Assembly: GCA_018221135.1 (NCBI GenBank) | Contig: JAAOYB010000030.1 | Location: 1-44,733, forward strand | Direction of reading: 5' to 3' | DNA from: Candidatus Woesearchaeota archaeon | GTDB taxonomy: Archaea > Nanobdellota > Nanobdellia > Woesearchaeales > BM511 | DNA length: 44,733 bases | Part shown: piece by piece, positions 13,237-44,733 of the stretch | Numbering within the stretch: position 1 is the first letter of the stretch | How the letters are laid out: every line of letters starts with the position of its first letter | Notes under the pieces: generated by a model | The model's database searches: none | Told to the model about the DNA's origin: nothing | The model's input: the letters and a program-made list of their open reading frames with translations, nothing else | Program-made: the position numbers and the translations under genes

Positions 13237-13565
13237 CTATATGTTGATTAAAGCTTTTGATTCCCCGCAGAAAAAGAAGGTTCGCCTAACAGTTTTTATC
13301 TCTGTGTCTTGTAGTAATCTACGTATTCTTTTTAGTTGCTTTGCCGCTTTGTGTATTCTGTGACTGCATTTTACTTCGTAGATGTCGTATGCTCCTTCTT
13401 TTACTCCTATTAAATCTATTTCTCCTACTAGTCGTTTCTTGTTGCTAAAAAGGGGTATGTGGTGCAGAACAAAGTCGTAGTTGTCTTCTACTAGGTTTGA
13501 AAGCTCCTCGACGTATAAGTCGTGTTTGCTCAGTTTTTTTGGGGGTATTTTGAGACACCTTCCAT
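13237..13565 (-). pseudogene. Small PD-(D/E)XK nuclease with a one-base frameshift near the start
   Basis: This fills most of the 476-base gap 13194-13669. A reading frame of about 100 codons ends at TAG 13237-13239 and contains VGEIDLIGVK then YDIYEVKCS, the classic D...ExK nuclease core, with a basic helix after it. It has no ATG, GTG or TTG before its upstream stop. In another frame ATG 13563-13565 starts MEGVSKYPQKN and hits TGA right after a C5-A7 run. Adding one base in that run joins the two frames into a 109-residue protein. A true pseudogene, a sequencing error or slippage are all possible. Confidence 0.6.
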
Positions 13566-20153: not shown

Positions 20154-20905
20154 TTTTTTTCGAACCAATCCCCAAACAACTTATTAGCATAACTTTTATC
20201 ACCATTAATCTCAAGAGCGTGATTTGCGCCTTCTAAAACCACTAGTTTAGCATCAGGAAAACCCTTAACAACTCTTTTGCTTTGTTCAACTCTCACAGCG
20301 GTGTCTGCGTCACCATGAATTATTAACACAGGACAAGTAATATCCTTGACTTTGTCGTACATGACATGTTTTTTGGTATCTTCAAAAAAAGAATAGTTTA
20401 CTTTAAACTCTTTACCCTCACCATTAACGTAAATGGTGTGGCCTTTCTCTTCCCAATCCTTAATTCCTTTTTCTCCTATGTGTTCTAATCTTTGAGTTGG
20501 GTAATCACTAACCGGTGCTTTAAGCGCAACTCTCTTAACATTAGGGTAAGCTAAAGCTACGTTCATAGCGACTAATCCTCCTGCGCTTGAACCAAACAAT
20601 TCAAATTCAGAATAACCTTTGCTCTCTAATAATTTAATAGCGCTTAGAACGTCATCAACCCAACCACTAATTGTTTGTTTTCCAAAATCTCCTTCGCTCT
20701 CCCCGCTACCACCAAGGTCTAATCTGAAACTATTAATTTTTCTAGAACTTAATTCTTCTGCTAATTGCTTTGTGCTGCGCCTATCTTTATTACTACTATA
20801 ACCATGAATTAGTATAACAACTCGTTTATCATCGCTTATTCTTTCGAGAACCCCTACAATCTTTAATCCGTTACTGTTTTTGAAACTGATTTTTTCTTCG
20901 CTCAT
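20150..20905 (-). CDS. Alpha/beta hydrolase
   Basis: 251 residues from ATG 20905, whose ATGA overlaps the hypD stop. Longer in-frame extensions run back into hypD and are rejected. Catalytic elements: VILIHGYSSNKDRRS (oxyanion region), nucleophile Ser in LFGSSAGGLVAM, acid Asp in LIIHGDADTAV and His in EGANHALE. It resembles acyl-peptide hydrolase or esterase-type serine hydrolases. The substrate is not known, and a link to hydrogenase maturation is only positional. Confidence 0.85.
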   Translation of the reverse strand: MSEEKISFKNSNGLKIVGVLERISDDKRVVILIHGYSSNKDRRSTKQLAEELSSRKINSFRLDLGGSGESEGDFGKQTISGWVDDVLSAIKLLESKGYSEFELFGSSAGGLVAMNVALAYPNVKRVALKAPVSDYPTQRLEHIGEKGIKDWEEKGHTIYVNGEGKEFKVNYSFFEDTKKHVMYDKVKDITCPVLIIHGDADTAVRVEQSKRVVKGFPDAKLVVLEGANHALEINGDKSYANKLFGDWFEKK

Positions 20906-21924
20906 TTTCCGTATTTGTAGTATATTTGGCAGCTGCCTTCTTCTGATACCATGCACGCGCCAACAGGGTTCTTTGGAGTGCAACTCTTCCTATAAAGAGG
21001 GCACTTAACTGATGTTATTATTCCCATTAAGACATCGCCGCAACGACACGCAGTCTTCTTAGGCGTAGATACTTTGTCAATGATTTCTTTGTATTTAACC
21101 TTAGCGTTAAGAGCGTCGCTTCTTACTTCTAATCCGCTTTCTGGAATTACTCCTAATCCTCTCCACTCACTATCAACGAGTACGAATTCTTCATCTAATA
21201 GTTTTTTGGCCTTAGGATTGCCAGATTCTTTTACGACTTCTTGATACGCGTTAACAACGATTTTTTTATCATCACGTATAAGTTCCAATAAGCTTTTTAT
21301 TCCTCTAAGGACTTGCTCCACTCCAAAACCAGTAATAGCTTGAGGGACAAGCAAATCCTTATAAGCATCACTTCCAATAATTGTGCTGACGTGTCCTGGG
21401 TCGATGAAGCCATCAATCTTACCACTCTCAGCCAATACTTTTAATGCGTTTGGGATTGTTTTGTGAACGCTGTAAACAACAACGCCTTTTTTTAGTAAGT
21501 ATGCTGTCATGGGAGCAGTGGTTTCAAAACCTACACCAAAGAAAACAATGTCTGGATGCTTTTTTCTTAACTCCATTACCTCAGTAGTTGAATATATTTC
21601 ATGTATCTTTGCGCCTTCCCCTCTCAAAGCTTCCAAATTAGTAGTGCTTCCTGGGACTCTCATCATATCACCATACGTCGCCACGACAACGCCGCTTCTA
21701 GCGATTCCTATCATGTTATCAATGTCTTTTTGGCTAGAGACACACACTGGGCAGCCAGGGCCGCTGATAAGCTTAAGATTACTAGGCAGTGCTTCTCGCA
21801 ACCCATACTTCATAACGGTGTTCGTGTGACCGCCGCAGACTTCCATGACAACTACTTCTCTTTTTATATCAACGCAGATTTCTTTGATACTTGCTAAGTG
21901 TTCATCAATTTTTTCTTTGTTCAT
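20902..21924 (-). CDS. hypD: Hydrogenase maturation protein HypD
   Basis: 340 residues. Carries the family motifs VMEVCGGHTNTVMKYG, GPGCPVCVSSQKDID and FFGVGFETTAPM, plus C-terminal cysteines including ACRCGDVLMGI that hold the [4Fe-4S] cluster. With HypC it builds the Fe(CN)2CO unit of the active site. It overlaps hypC by 20 bases. Confidence 0.95.
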   Translation of the reverse strand: MNKEKIDEHLASIKEICVDIKREVVVMEVCGGHTNTVMKYGLREALPSNLKLISGPGCPVCVSSQKDIDNMIGIARSGVVVATYGDMMRVPGSTTNLEALRGEGAKIHEIYSTTEVMELRKKHPDIVFFGVGFETTAPMTAYLLKKGVVVYSVHKTIPNALKVLAESGKIDGFIDPGHVSTIIGSDAYKDLLVPQAITGFGVEQVLRGIKSLLELIRDDKKIVVNAYQEVVKESGNPKAKKLLDEEFVLVDSEWRGLGVIPESGLEVRSDALNAKVKYKEIIDKVSTPKKTACRCGDVLMGIITSVKCPLYRKSCTPKNPVGACMVSEEGSCQIYYKYGK

Positions 21925-23152: not shown

Positions 23153-24676
23153 TTATATGCTGTGCTCAATAAAGAGGGATTTCTTCTTTTTTCCCACTGC
23201 GTGAATAGCGCAACTAATACAAGGATCAAAGCTTCTAACGATGTGCCCTGCTTCTAACATGCTGTCCTTCTCAGCTAGTTTAACGCCGATAAGTGCTTGT
23301 TCGATAGCACCTTTTTGTCCTTTGCTATCAGTAGGGCTAGCGTTCCAAGTAGTAGGAGTGATGATTTGGTACCTGGTAACTAATGAGTCTTCTCCTGTGT
23401 TTATCCAATGACCAAGTGCTCCTCTAGGAGCCTCTACTAAGCCAGCTCCTTTAACACCTTTTAGTTTGGCCTCATCAAATGGTTTATAGAAAGGTTTGGC
23501 TAAATCTATCTCGTCAACCCACGCTATGAGTTGAGGTAGTATGAGTAAGCATTCGTGAAGCCTAGCAATAGTCCTAGTAAAAGTGTTAACTCCTAAATTC
23601 TTTACTAAATCAGTAATAAGAGGGTTGCCGTTTACTATTTGCCTTGCGAGAGGCCCGACTTCTACGACTTTGCCAAAGTACCTCGCTGCTTTAAGCCAAC
23701 TATACGCTCCTTCTTTTTTAGGGAAGGGTTTGGTGACGCCGTTCATAGGATTAGGCCACTCATCGCTAGTCTCGTAATAAGAAAGCGCGGTGTCTTCGCT
23801 TATATGAGTGCTGTCTAACTCGTGATAATGTCCGTGTTCAACGTATCCAGGTCTGAAAAGCCATTTTTCATTTTTTAGTTCGCCAAAGCCGTACGCCAAA
23901 AAATTATTAGGGGTGTTCTTATCGAGTTTGTCAAGGCCTAAGTCCAACGCGGCTTTTATGAAGAAGCCAAGGTCTGCTGCGGCGAATTCCTTGTTTTTCT
24001 TTAGTGTTTCTAACACGTCTTTTGTGCTTTTAAGACTAAGAGCGGCGTCTACTGGGACTCCTAATATTTTTTGTTCTACTAATTCTTTAACATCATTTAA
24101 TATAGTGTTTACTTTGTTGAGCTCTATTTGTTTAGGAAGACAAGTCACTCCGCCTGGCACGGCGTGCATGGGGTGTGGGAATTTTCCTCCAAAAGTTGCT
24201 ACTATGCTATGAAGAGGTATTCTTCCTTGGGTTAATATCGTTTTTAGATGAGGACTAGCTAATGGATTAAATCTTTTTAGTAGTTCATCATAATATTTGT
24301 AATCCTTGTACTTTTCGTCTACGATGTCTGGTCCCCACATAAAATAGAAATGTGTTAAGTGACTCACAATAGTATTAGTTCCAAGCACTATGTCTCTTAT
24401 TAGCTGTGCGTTTCTTGGCGGCTTAATACCTACGGCGTCTTCGATAGCCTTAGCCCCTGCGGTTCCGTGACTAACAGGGCACACCCCGCAAGCACGTTGA
24501 CTCATCCTCATAGCGTCGAAAGCTTTTCTGCCAATAAAGATGTTTTCTAATCCTCTATAAACGAAGCCTAAGCACTTAGCGTCTTTTACTACGTTGTCTG
24601 CTCCTACGCTTAGTTCTATTGCTAAGTCTCCTTCTATTCTGTTTAGAGGGTCTATTATGTTTTTGTAATCACTCAT
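23153..24676 (-). CDS. [NiFe]-hydrogenase large subunit
   Basis: 507 residues. N-terminal nickel-binding motif R-A-C63-G-V-C66-P-V-S-H70 and C-terminal motif D-P-C486-I-S-C489-A-I-H492, followed by a 15-residue tail (AVGKKKK onwards) for the endopeptidase to remove. DPLNRIEGDLAIE is the family N-terminus. Both cysteine pairs are intact, so an active enzyme is expected. The start overlaps the small subunit stop. The lack of a Tat signal on the small subunit places the enzyme inside the cell, or attached to the inner face of the membrane. Confidence 0.96.
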   Translation of the reverse strand: MSDYKNIIDPLNRIEGDLAIELSVGADNVVKDAKCLGFVYRGLENIFIGRKAFDAMRMSQRACGVCPVSHGTAGAKAIEDAVGIKPPRNAQLIRDIVLGTNTIVSHLTHFYFMWGPDIVDEKYKDYKYYDELLKRFNPLASPHLKTILTQGRIPLHSIVATFGGKFPHPMHAVPGGVTCLPKQIELNKVNTILNDVKELVEQKILGVPVDAALSLKSTKDVLETLKKNKEFAAADLGFFIKAALDLGLDKLDKNTPNNFLAYGFGELKNEKWLFRPGYVEHGHYHELDSTHISEDTALSYYETSDEWPNPMNGVTKPFPKKEGAYSWLKAARYFGKVVEVGPLARQIVNGNPLITDLVKNLGVNTFTRTIARLHECLLILPQLIAWVDEIDLAKPFYKPFDEAKLKGVKGAGLVEAPRGALGHWINTGEDSLVTRYQIITPTTWNASPTDSKGQKGAIEQALIGVKLAEKDSMLEAGHIVRSFDPCISCAIHAVGKKKKSLFIEHSI

Positions 24677-35229: not shown

Positions 35230-36633
35230 ATGGCGCTCAGACTATACAACACTCTTAGTAGGAAGAAAGAAATCTTCAAACCCTTAAAGGATAAAAAAGT
35301 TGGGATGTACAGCTGCGGTCCTACGGTTTATCATTACACTCATATAGGTAATCTTCGAACTTTTGTGTTTAACGACATCTTGAGAAGAACCTTAAAATAC
35401 TTGGGATTTGAGTTAAAGCATGTGATGAACATCACAGACGTCGGACACTTAACAAGTGATGCTGATGAAGGCGAGGACAAAATGCTTCTTGGTGCTAAGC
35501 GTGAGAAGAAAACTGTGTGGGATATTGCTAAGTATTACACAGATGCTTTCATGAAAGACATAGAACTCCTAAACATTGAAACCCCTGAGATTATTCCTAA
35601 AGCCACTGATCACATCAAAGAAATGATTGATATCATAAAACTAATCGAGAAAAATGGTTACGCGTATGTTGCTGGTGGCAACGTTTATTTTGACTCCTCG
35701 AAGTTCAAAAGCTACATAGATTTAGCTAAACTAAATCTTGAAGAGTTAGAAAAACATTCAAGAGTTGAAAAGGATAAAAACAAGAAAAATCATTCAGACT
35801 TCGTGTTGTGGTTTACAAAATCCAAATTTGAAGACCAGGAGATGAAGTGGGACAGTCCTTGGGGAACCGGGTATCCTGGGTGGCACATCGAGTGCAGTGC
35901 GATGAGCAGTAAATATCTTGGAGAGCAGTTCGATATTCATACTGGTGGCATTGATCTTATCCCCGTTCATCACACTAATGAGATTGCGCAATCAGAAACA
36001 GCTTATGGTAAGAGTCCTTGGGTTAAGTACTGGCTTCACGGAGAATTCATAATTTTGGGCAAAGATAAGATGAGCAAGTCAAAGGGGGATTTCCTTCGTC
36101 TGCAATCTCTTATCGATAAAGGTTACAAACCAATTGTTTACAGATATTTTTGTTTGACTGCTAATTACAGGCAACAGCTTCACTTTAGTTATGAAGCGCT
36201 TGACGCGGCGAGAAACGCGTACGAAGGACTGAGGAGTCGCGTCTTAGAATTAAGAAAAGATGATAAGAAAAAAGATAGTGATGTTGAGGCTAAGACTAAG
36301 CACGAAACTGAGTTTATTGACGCGGTTCAAGATGATATTAATATGCCGCGTGCCTTAGCAGTTGTTTTCGCAGTATTAAAAGACGACGCTATCTCAAACA
36401 AAGACAAACTAGGCTTACTCTACGATTTTGATAAAGTACTAGGACTTGGTTTTGAGGATTTTAAAGAAGATAAAGTCGTTGTTTCAAAAGAAGTTAAGGT
36501 TTTAATTGAGAAAAGAGAAAAAGCTAGAAAACTAAAAGATTGGGCTAGTGCTGATAAAATCCGAGACGAAATAAAAAAATTAGGATACAATATAAAAGAC
36601 ACCCAACAAGGTGTTAAAGTCGAAAAAATTTAG
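35230..36633 (+). CDS. cysS: Cysteinyl-tRNA synthetase
   Basis: 467 residues, the normal length. Class I signatures: YSCGPTVYHYTHIGNLRTF (zinc Cys28 and the H-I-G-N form of HIGH) and K-M-S-K-S-K-G-D. The zinc site also uses WHIECSAMS and HHTNE. It charges tRNA-Cys. The TATA-like TTTATAAATA lies about 30 bases upstream, so no leader and no cysteine-codon leader peptide is seen, unlike valS. It overlaps the next gene's stop. Confidence 0.96.
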   Translation: MALRLYNTLSRKKEIFKPLKDKKVGMYSCGPTVYHYTHIGNLRTFVFNDILRRTLKYLGFELKHVMNITDVGHLTSDADEGEDKMLLGAKREKKTVWDIAKYYTDAFMKDIELLNIETPEIIPKATDHIKEMIDIIKLIEKNGYAYVAGGNVYFDSSKFKSYIDLAKLNLEELEKHSRVEKDKNKKNHSDFVLWFTKSKFEDQEMKWDSPWGTGYPGWHIECSAMSSKYLGEQFDIHTGGIDLIPVHHTNEIAQSETAYGKSPWVKYWLHGEFIILGKDKMSKSKGDFLRLQSLIDKGYKPIVYRYFCLTANYRQQLHFSYEALDAARNAYEGLRSRVLELRKDDKKKDSDVEAKTKHETEFIDAVQDDINMPRALAVVFAVLKDDAISNKDKLGLLYDFDKVLGLGFEDFKEDKVVVSKEVKVLIEKREKARKLKDWASADKIRDEIKKLGYNIKDTQQGVKVEKI

Positions 36634-38798: not shown

Positions 38799-41231
38799 TT
38801 ATTTCTTGATAGAGACTTTCAAACCAAGTTTTTGAGAAACAAAACCCTTAGGAGCCTTTCCAAAAATCACGTTTTTAGTTTTTGTAACGCTTCTAAGATC
38901 ATCAAGAACAAGCCCGAGTTCTTTTTCGTTCTTGGTCTCAATAACTAACTCAGATAACTCTTCTTTTAAACTCATAGCGTTCTCAGACTTATACTTTCTA
39001 ACAATACTGCTAACCTCAACAAGTAAATCCCCTGCTAACTCAGCTTTCTCATCAATCATGCTAAGTGTAGGCCACGCACTGTTATGAACACTTTTCTCAC
39101 CTTCGCGCGTCGCAAAATATAAGTGGTAGACTTCTTCTGTTACAAACGGCATTATAGGCGCAAATAATTTAAGAACAGTCAAGAAAGCGGTGTAGAGCGT
39201 CATCTTACCACTACCTACTTTGTCCTCTCCCCAAACCTCTGGGTTGTACATCCTGTCTTTTATGATTTCTAAGTAATTATCGCATAGAACACTCCAAAAG
39301 AATTTTTCGGTCTCAGCTTTTCCATAACTATACTCGTACTTATCAAAACTAGTAGTGCTAAGCTTTACAACTCTTGATAACTTGCTAAGAAGCCATGCAT
39401 CTATTACTTCTAATTTTTTTGGTTTGCACAAATCATAATCTCCGAGTTGCATGATAGCAAACTTAGTAGCGTTCCATAACTTCGTGATAGTCTTATTCGC
39501 GGTTACTAAATCCTTTTCTTGGTAAGGCATGTCATCGCCAAGCTTAGTGCCCGCGGCCCAGAACCTAATAGCGTCGCTATTAAACTTTTTGTGAACCTCT
39601 ATAGGATCAACAACATTACCTTTAGACTTGCTCATCTTCTTGCCGTGAGGGTCTAATGCCCACCCACTAATCATGGCATCCTTCCAAGGATTAACCTTGT
39701 TGTGAAACTGACTCTTAACAACAGTGTTGAAAAGCCAGAACGTGATTATGTCATGAGCTTGAGGTCTAAGATTCATAGTAGGCTGCAACTTTTTGTAAAC
39801 TGGGTGATCAACAAATAAGTCCGCTGCGAGCCTCGGCGTCAAGCTACTCGTAGCCCACGTATCGAGCACGTCTTTCTCCCCAACTATTTTGGTATGAGAA
39901 CACTTTGGGCAAGTACTAATAGGGGGCTTATCACTTGTTGGGTCAACCGGCAAATCCTTTTCGTTTGGCAAAATTACTTCGTCACACTTCTCGCAATACC
40001 AAACAGGTATCGGAATCCCGAAGTGGCGTTGTCTTGAGATGCACCAGTCCCACTTTATTCCTTTAACCCAATTATCGAAACGGTTCTTCATGAATTTCGG
40101 GTACCAATTAAGCTGGTTCCCTGCTTTTAGTAATTCTTTTTTCTTATCCAAATATTTTATGAACCATTGTTTTGAGTGTAGGATTTCGATTTCGTGACCA
40201 CAGCGCTCATGAACGTTAACTACGTGGAGTATGTGCTCCTTTTTTTTGAGGAGGCCTTCTTTTTCTAGGTCGTCTAGGATTGCTTTTCTGGCTTGTTTTA
40301 TCTTCATACCTTCATATTCTTTTGCTAGTTTTGTCATGTGGCCGTGGCCGTCAATTGCTTCTCGAAGAGGTAAGTTGTATTGGAAGTACCATTCCATGTC
40401 TGTTTGGTCACCAAACGTGCAGCACATAACAATCCCGGTTCCTTTATCGATGGAGACGCGCTCATCAGGCATGATTATTACTTCGTGCCCAAATAATGGA
40501 ACCTTTGCTTTTTTACCTTTATACTTCTGGTAGCGCTTATCATCTGGGTGATAGAAAATACTAACACACGCGGGGAGTAGTTCTGGCCTTGTTGTCGCAA
40601 TGATTAATTCTTTTCCATCCGGGAAAGTAAAAGCGATGTCATTAAAAGTTGAGTCGTGCTCTTTATCTTCTAGCTCTGCTTGTGCGATTGCTACGTGGCA
40701 CTCAGGACACCAAAGAGTAGGAGCTTCTTTTCTGTACTCCCGACCCGCTTTGTACAAGTCAATAAAGCTCTTCTGGCTGATACGCTGAGAATAATCATTA
40801 ATAGTACTATAATAAACGTCAAAGTCGCAACTAATACCAAGTTGTCTCCAATCTTGTATGAATTCAGGCAATAATTTTTTTAGAGTTGATAAGCATAGCT
40901 TTACGTATTCTTTTCTCTCAAAATCCTTGCTTCGAATCTTATTAGTTTTTTCAACGAGCTTATCAAAAGGAAGACCGTTATCATCGGTTCCGAAAGGATA
41001 AAAAAGTTCATATCCTCTCATTCTTTTGTATCTAGCAATGAAATCCATTTGAGAAAAACTAAAAGCATGACCGATGTGCATCCTGCCACTAACAGTCGGG
41101 GGAGGGGTGTCAATACTATAAACTTCTTTTTTAGTATCTGGGTTGAACTTATAAGTCCTGTTTTCTTGCCAGTACTCCACCCATTTCTTCTCGCTTTCGT
41201 GTGCTTGGTATTTCTTTGGTAATTCTTTCAT
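38799..41231 (-). CDS. valS: Valyl-tRNA synthetase
   Basis: 810 residues, the archaeal/alphaproteobacterial size class. PPTVSGRMHIGHAFSFSQMD gives the HIGH motif and K-M-S-K-S-K-G-N the KMSKS motif. Editing (CP1) domain with IIATTRPELLPAC and zinc-type cysteines in WYCEKCDE and CPKCSHTK. It charges tRNA-Val and edits threonine. A GAGG lies 11 bases upstream. Its leader, unlike those of the other synthetases here, contains a short valine-rich reading frame, suggesting control by valine supply. Confidence 0.96.
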   Translation of the reverse strand: MKELPKKYQAHESEKKWVEYWQENRTYKFNPDTKKEVYSIDTPPPTVSGRMHIGHAFSFSQMDFIARYKRMRGYELFYPFGTDDNGLPFDKLVEKTNKIRSKDFERKEYVKLCLSTLKKLLPEFIQDWRQLGISCDFDVYYSTINDYSQRISQKSFIDLYKAGREYRKEAPTLWCPECHVAIAQAELEDKEHDSTFNDIAFTFPDGKELIIATTRPELLPACVSIFYHPDDKRYQKYKGKKAKVPLFGHEVIIMPDERVSIDKGTGIVMCCTFGDQTDMEWYFQYNLPLREAIDGHGHMTKLAKEYEGMKIKQARKAILDDLEKEGLLKKKEHILHVVNVHERCGHEIEILHSKQWFIKYLDKKKELLKAGNQLNWYPKFMKNRFDNWVKGIKWDWCISRQRHFGIPIPVWYCEKCDEVILPNEKDLPVDPTSDKPPISTCPKCSHTKIVGEKDVLDTWATSSLTPRLAADLFVDHPVYKKLQPTMNLRPQAHDIITFWLFNTVVKSQFHNKVNPWKDAMISGWALDPHGKKMSKSKGNVVDPIEVHKKFNSDAIRFWAAGTKLGDDMPYQEKDLVTANKTITKLWNATKFAIMQLGDYDLCKPKKLEVIDAWLLSKLSRVVKLSTTSFDKYEYSYGKAETEKFFWSVLCDNYLEIIKDRMYNPEVWGEDKVGSGKMTLYTAFLTVLKLFAPIMPFVTEEVYHLYFATREGEKSVHNSAWPTLSMIDEKAELAGDLLVEVSSIVRKYKSENAMSLKEELSELVIETKNEKELGLVLDDLRSVTKTKNVIFGKAPKGFVSQKLGLKVSIKK

Positions 41232-41285
41232 CTAAATCAAAACCTCTAGTTTAGAATAAATCTTTTTTAAGCCGATGAGGGGAGT

Positions 41286-41318
41286 CTATCCCACTACCAC
41301 CACTACGTACGCACTCAT
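41286..41318 (-). promoter_or_regulatory. Valine-rich leader peptide of valS
   Basis: MSAYVVVVVG: ATG AGT GCG TAC, five valine codons (GTA GTG GTG GTA GTG), GGA, TAG. The ATG lies about 36 bases after a TATA-like TATTTAAA (41351-41358), near the expected transcript start, and the stop is 54 bases before the valS ATG. At its stop, AG(T)GGGA can pair with TCCCCT. CCTC (41277-41280) can pair with the valS GAGG (41243-41246), so a ribosome stalled on valine codons could change access to the valS ribosome site. TCTAAA/TTTAGA near the valS ATG is a further stem. Confidence 0.6.
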
Positions 41319-41370
41319 TTTTTTATTAATATGCTGTGTCAATGATGTAATATTTAAAGTTTTCGACAAC

Positions 41371-41402: not shown

Positions 41403-42506
41403 ATGGCTGGTAGTGTTACGCCTTGGGAAGTCAAAGGAGAAATAAACTATGAGAAACTCATAAAGGACTTTGGAGTAGAAACATTTAGTAAACTCCCAAA
41501 AATCTTTGAAGAAAACCTATTATTTAGGCGAAAGAAAATCTTTGCGCACAGAGACTTTAAAAGAATACTTGATTCTATAAAAGAAAAGAAGCCTTTTGTT
41601 ATGATGACTGGGCTCATGCCCACAGGCAAGTTCCACATAGGGCATATGATACTAGCCCAACAAATGATATTCTACCAAGAACTTGGCGCGAAGCTGTACA
41701 TAGCAGTAGCTGATATAGAAGCCTACAACGCAAGAGGGCAAAACCTAGAGGAGAGTCGCAGAATAGCAGTTGACCAATACATAACAAACTACATCGCACT
41801 CGGGTTAAAGCCAAAAAACTGCGAGATATACTTTCAAAGCGAGCGCTCAAAAGACGCTAAGCGAGCAAACGCGTTTTATCGCTTGCAAAACTTATTGGCT
41901 AATCACATAACTTTTAACGAGTTCCGCGCGGCGTACGGCGAGATAAGCCCTGCTAAGATGAACGCGAGCTTATTACAAGCAGCGGATATGTTGCACCCTC
42001 AACTAAAAGAATTCGAAGGAGCACCGCTCCCAGTAGTAGTCCCAGTAGGCATCGACCAAGACCCACACATAAGACTTGGTAGGGACATGGCGAAAAGACT
42101 GAAGATCACTCGGTTCGTTCCTCTCTCTAGTACGTATCACGTCTTCGTGCCAGGCCTTGACGGCGGAAAGATGAGCTCATCAGATGAGACTAGTTTCGTT
42201 GCTCTTACAGATGACGCAAAAACCATTAAGAAAAAAGTAAACAAGTACGCTTTTAGCGGGGGTAAAGCAACTGTTGAGGAACACAGAAAACTAGGCGGAG
42301 ACCCAGACGTCGATGTTAGTTACCAATGGCTAACTTTTTTTGAAGAAGATGACAAGAAAATAATGAAGATTCGTGATGATTACAAAAGTGGGAAGTTGTT
42401 GTCTGGAGAGCTAAAAGCAATGCTGATTGAGAAGTTAACAAATATTTTTGGTGACTTGCAAAAAAAACGGGTACTAGCAAAGAAGAATTTAGACAAATAT
42501 GTTTAG
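41403..42506 (+). CDS. trpS: Tryptophanyl-tRNA synthetase
   Basis: 367 residues. TGLMPTGKFHIGHMILAQQM carries the HIGH motif and GGKMSSSDETSF the KMSKS equivalent. VPVGIDQDPHIRLGRDMAKRL and the extended N-terminus match the archaeal/eukaryotic type. It charges tRNA-Trp. No tryptophan-codon leader is present; the transcript looks leaderless. Its end overlaps the next gene's stop. Confidence 0.95.
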   Translation: MAGSVTPWEVKGEINYEKLIKDFGVETFSKLPKIFEENLLFRRKKIFAHRDFKRILDSIKEKKPFVMMTGLMPTGKFHIGHMILAQQMIFYQELGAKLYIAVADIEAYNARGQNLEESRRIAVDQYITNYIALGLKPKNCEIYFQSERSKDAKRANAFYRLQNLLANHITFNEFRAAYGEISPAKMNASLLQAADMLHPQLKEFEGAPLPVVVPVGIDQDPHIRLGRDMAKRLKITRFVPLSSTYHVFVPGLDGGKMSSSDETSFVALTDDAKTIKKKVNKYAFSGGKATVEEHRKLGGDPDVDVSYQWLTFFEEDDKKIMKIRDDYKSGKLLSGELKAMLIEKLTNIFGDLQKKRVLAKKNLDKYV

Positions 42507-44310: not shown

Positions 44311-44733
44311 ATGGAAGGAAAAGTAAAGTTTTTTAACAAAAATAAAGGATTTGGTTTTATTACAGCAGACGACGGCAAAGACTACTTTGTTCACTTAACT
44401 GGGGTTGCACCTGGCACTTTTTTGCGTGACGAAGACCCAGTCACATTCGATGTAGAAGATGGTGAGCGAGGACCTAAAGCGGTTAACGTAGCACTATCTG
44501 AAGGCGGAGCAAGCGCACCAGCGCAAGAAGCTGATGATGTCGAAGAAGACTCAGTTGAAGAAAAAGCTGATGAAGATCCAGTTGAAGAAGATCCAGTTGA
44601 AGAAGATCCAGTTGAAGAAGAAGCTGATGAAGATCCAGTTGAAGAAGAAGCTGATGAAGATCCAGTTGAAGAAGAAGCTGAAGATCCAGTTGAAGAAGAA
44701 GCTGAAGATCCAGTTGAAGAAGAAGCTGATGAA
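44311..44733 (+). CDS. Cold-shock-domain protein with acidic repeat tail, 3' end missing
   Basis: 141 residues seen; the frame is still open at the window end. Residues 1-64 are a cold-shock OB-fold: GKVKFFNKNKGFGFITADDG (RNP1) and DYFVHLT (RNP2). After an Ala-rich linker, the tail holds seven D-P-V-E-E copies in E/D-rich repeats, built on 15-, 24- and 27-base DNA units. The domain binds single-stranded nucleic acid; the tail may set solubility or partner binding. Upstream TATA-like TTTTATAAAA and a leader of about 45 bases suit cold-shock control. Confidence 0.85.
   Translation, partial: MEGKVKFFNKNKGFGFITADDGKDYFVHLTGVAPGTFLRDEDPVTFDVEDGERGPKAVNVALSEGGASAPAQEADDVEEDSVEEKADEDPVEEDPVEEDPVEEEADEDPVEEEADEDPVEEEAEDPVEEEAEDPVEEEADE

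Follow-up and report, generated by a model that had tools for sequence, protein, structure and literature searches.

The window, that is, the whole stretch of 44,733 nucleotides from a Candidatus Woesearchaeota archaeon analyzed here, carries the valine–tRNA ligase gene valS on its minus strand and the divergent neighbour trpS on its plus strand, an arrangement of the two genes also found in a second genome, G002. Upstream of valS lies a short open reading frame (ORF) encoding MSAYVVVVVG (hereafter designated the window leader). The features of the locus are as follows:

38799-41231, minus strand: valS, valine–tRNA ligase (NCBIfam PRK13208, 1062.8 bits)
41246-41243, minus strand: GAGG, Shine-Dalgarno sequence of valS
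41278-41273, minus strand: TCATCG, an instance of the YCANYG element after the leader stop
41280-41277, minus strand: CCTC in the leader region
41318-41286, minus strand: leader ORF, MSAYVVVVVG and stop, with cognate counterparts at 10 further valS loci
41306-41292, minus strand: five successive Val codons (GTA GTG GTG GTA GTG), proposed stall site
41324-41330, minus strand: predicted region of transcription initiation, some 6-12 nt upstream of the leader ATG, placed by the TATA spacing of leaderless genes
41360-41350, minus strand: TATA box ACTTTAAATAT, predicted to be the promoter from which leader and valS are transcribed (PWM score 10.5, at -40 from the leader ATG)
41403-42506, plus strand: trpS, leaderless, with a TATA box at -32

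The window leader comprises 33 nt (ATG AGT GCG TAC GTA GTG GTG GTA GTG GGA TAG), with the ATG at 41318-41316 and the TAG at 41288-41286, and 54 nt separate its stop from the valS start. A first-pass annotation of the DNA had placed the same peptide at these positions and had considered a five-valine frame very unlikely by chance. This held for valine: when the 171-nt intergenic region was shuffled 20,000 times, an ATG ORF with five or more Val in succession never arose, and no other short ATG ORF in the window has a run of four or more Val. It held less well for runs as such: runs of at least five of any residue occur in 6 of the 619 short ORFs in the window (~1%), and the single case is therefore weak proof, so that the homologues decide. 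Likewise, a short ORF at 13389-13448 (plus strand; MLLLLLLLNLFLLLVVSCC) contains a Leu run with no synthetase gene identified nearby, which shows that runs alone are weak evidence. As the annotation had also held, trpS and cysS (35230-36633) are devoid of such leaders; the window scan found no TATA-positioned short ORF with a run of at least three before cysS.

Promoter signals were evaluated with a TATA PWM trained on 199 non-leader valS and ileS genes of the window's order. In leaderless genes of the order, the first T of the TATA box lies 30–33 nt before the start codon. In the window, the leader ATG is preceded at a distance of 40 nt by a strong box, in which TTTAAA has its first T at 41358, supporting the earlier proposal that this ATG is close to the transcript start, and the PWM scan revealed no comparable box directly before valS itself. 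Similar relationships were obtained across the leaders: TATA scores of at least 7 at the leaderless-gene spacing were found for 27 of 35 leader ATGs versus 32 of 1061 other upstream ATGs, and two more leader ATGs fit the spacing once the true start is used. Conversely, a TATA box at that spacing before the main ATG occurs in 5 of 36 leader genes, compared with 148 of 199 non-leader genes. Moreover, the Shine-Dalgarno sequence is stronger before the main ORF of leader genes than before that of leaderless relatives (median -8.7 versus -2.35, p 1.8e-12). The TATA box before the leader ATG together with the Shine-Dalgarno sequence before the synthetase ORF points to the leader as the first cistron of the synthetase mRNA; the leader should occupy the place of the main ORF behind the promoter, with the synthetase as the second cistron. 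By the same signals, the window leader and valS stand behind one promoter, with a TATA box before the leader only and a Shine-Dalgarno sequence before valS. Some AT-rich ileS, leuS, and thrS loci contain a TATA-like site between leader and gene, which counts against a sensor function; at valS, such a site scores below 4 in 8 of 11 cases.

Among 152 distinct valS upstream regions collected from the window's order (353 genomes represented), a promoter-proximal leader ORF comparable to that of the window was found in 11 (~7%), window included. Most of the regions are leaderless: the TATA box lies some 30 nt upstream of the valS start codon, with nothing intervening. Besides the window leader, the valS leaders are MFKTVVVVVVG (G002, of the same family as the window genome), MRLAKDHVTAVGVVVVA (G047), MKIIIHVVVE (G026), MNRLLKVYMVLVV (G137), MYLVSGIFSVVVA (G140), MYSIWKTLSVVVAN (G132), MICVVVVVA (G250), and MSGVVVVVA (G350), together with two weaker ones classed as holding only two Val, MKPLTLVV (G096) and MPIAVVAMA (G351). 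In most of the 11, the Val run stands at the leader end, and its codons vary freely among synonyms (GTA 14, GTG 16, GTC 11, GTT 4). The comparison of valS leaders proposed in the first-pass annotation came out mostly in its favour: most homologues are leaderless, and of the 13 TATA-positioned upstream ORFs (uORFs) before valS, 10 contain two or more Val among their nine final residues. On the ValRS tree, the leader-bearing genes are scattered, with at least seven changes needed, a distribution that counts against a sensor function and led us to reject simple vertical inheritance from one origin for the valS leaders. The closest relative of the window genome (G001; 72% ValRS identity) has a contig that ends inside valS, and a phylum-level valS search with a strict E-value yielded only two genomes.

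Two observations on the family of the window genome are added here. In both the window genome and G002, a Val leader precedes a valS gene that diverges from trpS, and the two ValRS proteins do not group in a quick tree in which the G002 branch is long, owing to either in-place replacement or a tree artefact. The valS of G002 (locus L037), which follows MFKTVVVVVVG, contains an in-frame TAA at codon 34, for which an assembly error, a real disruption, or readthrough is possible.

Leaders of the same kind precede other synthetase genes of the leader-bearing genomes, to which this part of the survey was directed. Ile-run leaders before ileS number 16 in related genomes, including the genome of the window itself (MVETRGEIIISIII); further examples, not an exhaustive list, are MNKLLIVQIIISIIIIA, MFSDNIVVSIIII, MNQNATGIISIIII, MLIARGTDAGSIIIIR, MEQKIEILISII, MSADLIQLQISVIII, MPFGVAYSIIIM, MSQDKYSTFSVIII, MHIKNKNIISIIIIA, and MFITCITSIISIIM. 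Two of the 16 (L396 and L408) are from other orders of the class, where about 55 ileS regions were scanned. Four clear Thr-run leaders precede thrS (MVVNNIFETQVLTTTTTTA, MKKTNATQTKNFLNTTTTTTTV, MAADWFDKLEELILLLLTTATTTTTC, and MISDFFENIVDFVILLTTVTTTTTTS), two Leu-run leaders precede leuS (MNLQPNLLLILLI and MKLNGLDLLLLLVL), one Phe-run leader precedes pheS in G137 (MDTYVVSFNHIFFFI), and one Asn/Asp-rich leader precedes aspS in G130 (MQNLNIFGYCNEFFLVDNSNNNDNY), where asnS sits after aspS. All of these ORFs end with a stop codon, and 30–111 nt lie between the leader stop and the synthetase ATG. No cognate leader was found before serS and proS in leader-bearing genomes or before metG of the window genome and G002, and most pheS and aspS/lysS/asnS regions examined have none, the exceptions being those of G137 and G130. 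Some gene starts were set by simple rules and may be off; the thrS leader of G140 surfaced only in the scan of 587 genes described below. The window leader thus belongs to a family of cognate leaders found at valS, ileS, leuS, thrS, pheS, and aspS-asnS, which bears out the original description of it as an amino-acid-specific leader peptide.

The match between the run residue and the synthetase was assessed against dinucleotide shuffles, counting ATG uORFs with at least four cognate residues among the last nine. The observed and expected numbers were 6 versus 0.07 for Val before valS, 8 versus 0.48 for Ile before ileS, 2 versus 0.18 for Leu before leuS, and 3 versus 0.02 for Thr before thrS; serS and proS gave no cognate-run uORFs. 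Since the sequences are related to each other, all p-values given here are guides only. At least two Ile are present in the last nine residues of 12 of 14 TATA-positioned uORFs before ileS. Furthermore, among 587 genes of the fetched loci, 20 TATA-positioned uORFs had at least four identical residues of nine; all 20 precede synthetase genes, and 17 are cognate, Asn before aspS-asnS counted. Because the loci were fetched around synthetase genes, this result speaks to specificity, not frequency. The window leader accordingly resembles bacterial attenuators in being a short ORF with several codons of the downstream gene's amino acid, a relationship that is cognate across six synthetase families.

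RNA structure differs among the families. The Ser-Ile codons (TTTCTATYAT) of the ileS leaders form a helix with downstream ATRATAGAAA and its variants (strands TTTCTATCAT/ATGATAGAAA; Fisher p 4e-7), located 26–49 nt after the stop or further on, and this helix surrounds a post-stop hairpin whose sequence varies (Stouffer z -6.2). Two pairs of the helix covary in 20-letter rows picked by hand from the computed helices, the first at the third position of an Ile codon, the second accompanied by a change from Ile to Val. In the aspS leader of G130, the last codons pair with GTAGTTGTCA (run hairpin z -3.2); part of this segment also lies in one strand of the alternative hairpin TGTCAAC/GTTGACA, in the same 1:2 against 2:3 layout as in a classical attenuator. 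The valS leaders as a group showed no consistent run-containing helix switch (Fisher 0.34); for the window leader, predicted folding did not surpass that of shuffled sequence (whole leader z +0.64).

The regions after the stops of the valS, leuS, and thrS leaders share a YCANYG element (often CTCATTG) 1–7 nt downstream, present in 12 of 19 versus 0.73 expected for a pattern chosen post hoc; in an unbiased hexamer scan of the same regions, CTCATT occurred 14 times against a null maximum of 11. A pairing partner for the element was looked for and not found. Behind it, these leaders as a group have a pyrimidine/T-rich tract (p 0.002). The window leader is followed by no obvious T-tract, in agreement with the earlier remark that it has no T-rich terminator, and inspection of 36 leader regions revealed no intrinsic terminator, that is, a GC hairpin plus a U-run (T-run in the DNA), before the gene.

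A translational switch, in which the post-stop CCTC sequesters the valS GAGG until GAGG is released by a ribosome that has stalled on the Val codons and occupies CCTC, had been put forward in the first-pass annotation. Both motifs are present exactly where it had located them, G002 has CTCA/TGAG at similar places, and the geometry is compatible with a stalled ribosome. However, the pairing consists of just four base pairs and is not above shuffles, either in the window (p 0.74) or in combined tests (Fisher 0.48 for 10 valS leaders, 0.97 for leuS/thrS, and 0.99 for ileS/pheS). Also, the competing hairpin that had been proposed for the leader stop is less stable than its shuffled counterparts (z +0.75; mean z -0.08 across the 11 valS leaders). 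The switch is therefore unlikely.

Slightly less likely again is an RNA element, such as an operator, a tRNA mimic, or a riboswitch-like structure bound by the synthetase or tRNA, as the conserved entity, with the ORF and its Val codons as by-products. The structured RNA of the ileS leaders and the YCANYG element common to the valS, leuS, and thrS leaders would suit it. Against it, the encoded residue matches the synthetase in several families with codons varying synonymously, the leader ATG sits at a promoter-defined position, and no fold is common to the valS leaders. Moreover, none of 20 leader loci reached the gathering threshold of a family in Rfam 15, and the window leader gave chance-level matches only.

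It is very unlikely that the leader merely feeds ribosomes to the synthetase ORF by termination-reinitiation or coupling, independently of charging. Although the distances of 30–111 nt are in keeping with this, and a boost to translation from reinitiation at leader peptides has been suggested for bacteria (PMC4833913), it leaves unexplained both the residue-synthetase match and the ileS and aspS helices that include the run codons. Chance occurrence of low-complexity short ORFs in AT-rich intergenic DNA, in favour of which the 6 of 619 run-containing ORFs of the window could be cited, is strongly disfavoured by the cognate specificity across synthetase families, the TATA spacing of the leader ATGs, and the Shine-Dalgarno shift.

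The reading that we prefer, with a probability of roughly three in four, is that the valS mRNA has the 33-nt ORF as its first cistron and that this ORF specifies a leader peptide sensing the charging of tRNA-Val. Judging from the sequence patterns, the family as a whole would very probably consist of cognate leader peptides acting in cis, and these probably raise synthetase expression when the cognate tRNA is undercharged. Presumably, RNA polymerase starts just upstream of the leader ATG, as the computed TATA spacing suggests, and the leader would be translated from, or nearly from, the 5' end of the mRNA. When Val-tRNA is ample, the ribosome would read the five Val codons, end at the TAG, and leave, so that the RNA behind the polymerase could fold or be bound and valS output would be low. 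When Val-tRNA is scarce, the ribosome would stall on the Val codons and cover the following nucleotides, thereby blocking the OFF event and raising valS output. In ileS and aspS, pairing of the run codons with a downstream strand beside the post-stop hairpin may, by computation, constitute the RNA switch. For the OFF step, of which the valS leaders show no visible sign, we slightly favor early transcription termination over control of valS translation. The lean toward termination at the T-rich tract behind the valS, leuS, and thrS leaders is due to archaeal termination being described (PMC8716108) as dependent on U-tracts and aCPSF1 (FttA) without a strict need for a hairpin. Termination is weakest as an explanation at the window leader, because this leader is not T-rich.

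Leader-peptide attenuation is a textbook bacterial mechanism, exemplified by the trp, his, thr, leu, ilv, and pheST attenuators of enterobacteria. Others are those of ilvBNC in Corynebacterium (PMC11857589) and of Actinobacteria (PMC1262725). The archaeal leaders have in common with these a short 5' ORF with a codon run for the amino acid of the downstream gene and, in ileS and aspS, a run located in one strand of alternative RNA helices. They differ in having their predicted start at the 5' end of the mRNA or close to it, downstream of a TATA box, in having synthetase genes as targets, in showing no evident bacterial-type terminator, in the valS leaders being without a clear helix switch, and in their patchy distribution within one order. 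In ermC-type translational attenuators, ribosome stalling frees the Shine-Dalgarno sequence (PMC10219788); both combine an upstream leader ORF with a gene that has a Shine-Dalgarno sequence to itself, and both have a stalled ribosome as the (here proposed) sensor, whereas Shine-Dalgarno sequestration was tested in the archaeal leaders and not found. With T-box riboswitches, the leaders would share the control of synthetase genes by tRNA charging, but the archaeal sensor would be an ORF, and neither the 20 leader loci nor the window leader matched an Rfam family.

In Archaea, leaderless mRNAs and small ORFs in 5'UTRs (PMC7531240), 10% of the unannotated small ORFs in Methanosarcina mazei Ribo-seq being in 5'UTRs and such ORFs being translated (PMC11456600), represent the same kind of 5' end, and U-tract/aCPSF1 termination (PMC8716108) is a possible OFF step; the relevant passages of these three papers do not describe a cognate-codon leader. 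According to a 2021 paper, no archaeal example of transcription attenuation was known at that time (PMC8448881), and a 2023 tool paper states in passing that uORFs act in archaea too (PMC10219788). We found no archaeal synthetase leader peptide in the open-licence literature, and earlier reports may exist elsewhere. By analogy, the leaders look like bacterial-style attenuation operating in Archaea minus the bacterial-type terminator. From the sequence comparisons, we consider it fairly likely that Archaea possess multi-gene ribosome-mediated attenuation, in which Val, Ile, Leu, Thr, Phe, and Asp/Asn synthetase leaders sense the charging of their own tRNAs; it would occur in lineages scattered over one order, apparently extend to further orders of the same class, and use alternative helices in ileS and aspS. 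If so, the presence of cognate leaders at six kinds of synthetase gene in DPANN archaea of small genome size would mean that leader translation controls archaeal genes too, and that attenuation operates on a eukaryote-like RNA polymerase with the leader at or near the mRNA 5' end. Archaeal attenuation becomes directly testable through the synthetase leaders.

Elsewhere in the window, the minus strand encodes HypD and a nickel-dependent hydrogenase large subunit (20902-21924 and 23153-24676, by Pfam), and a small plus-strand ORF at 44311-44733, which runs off the window, has a cold-shock-protein-like start followed by acidic repeats of the DPVEEEADE type.
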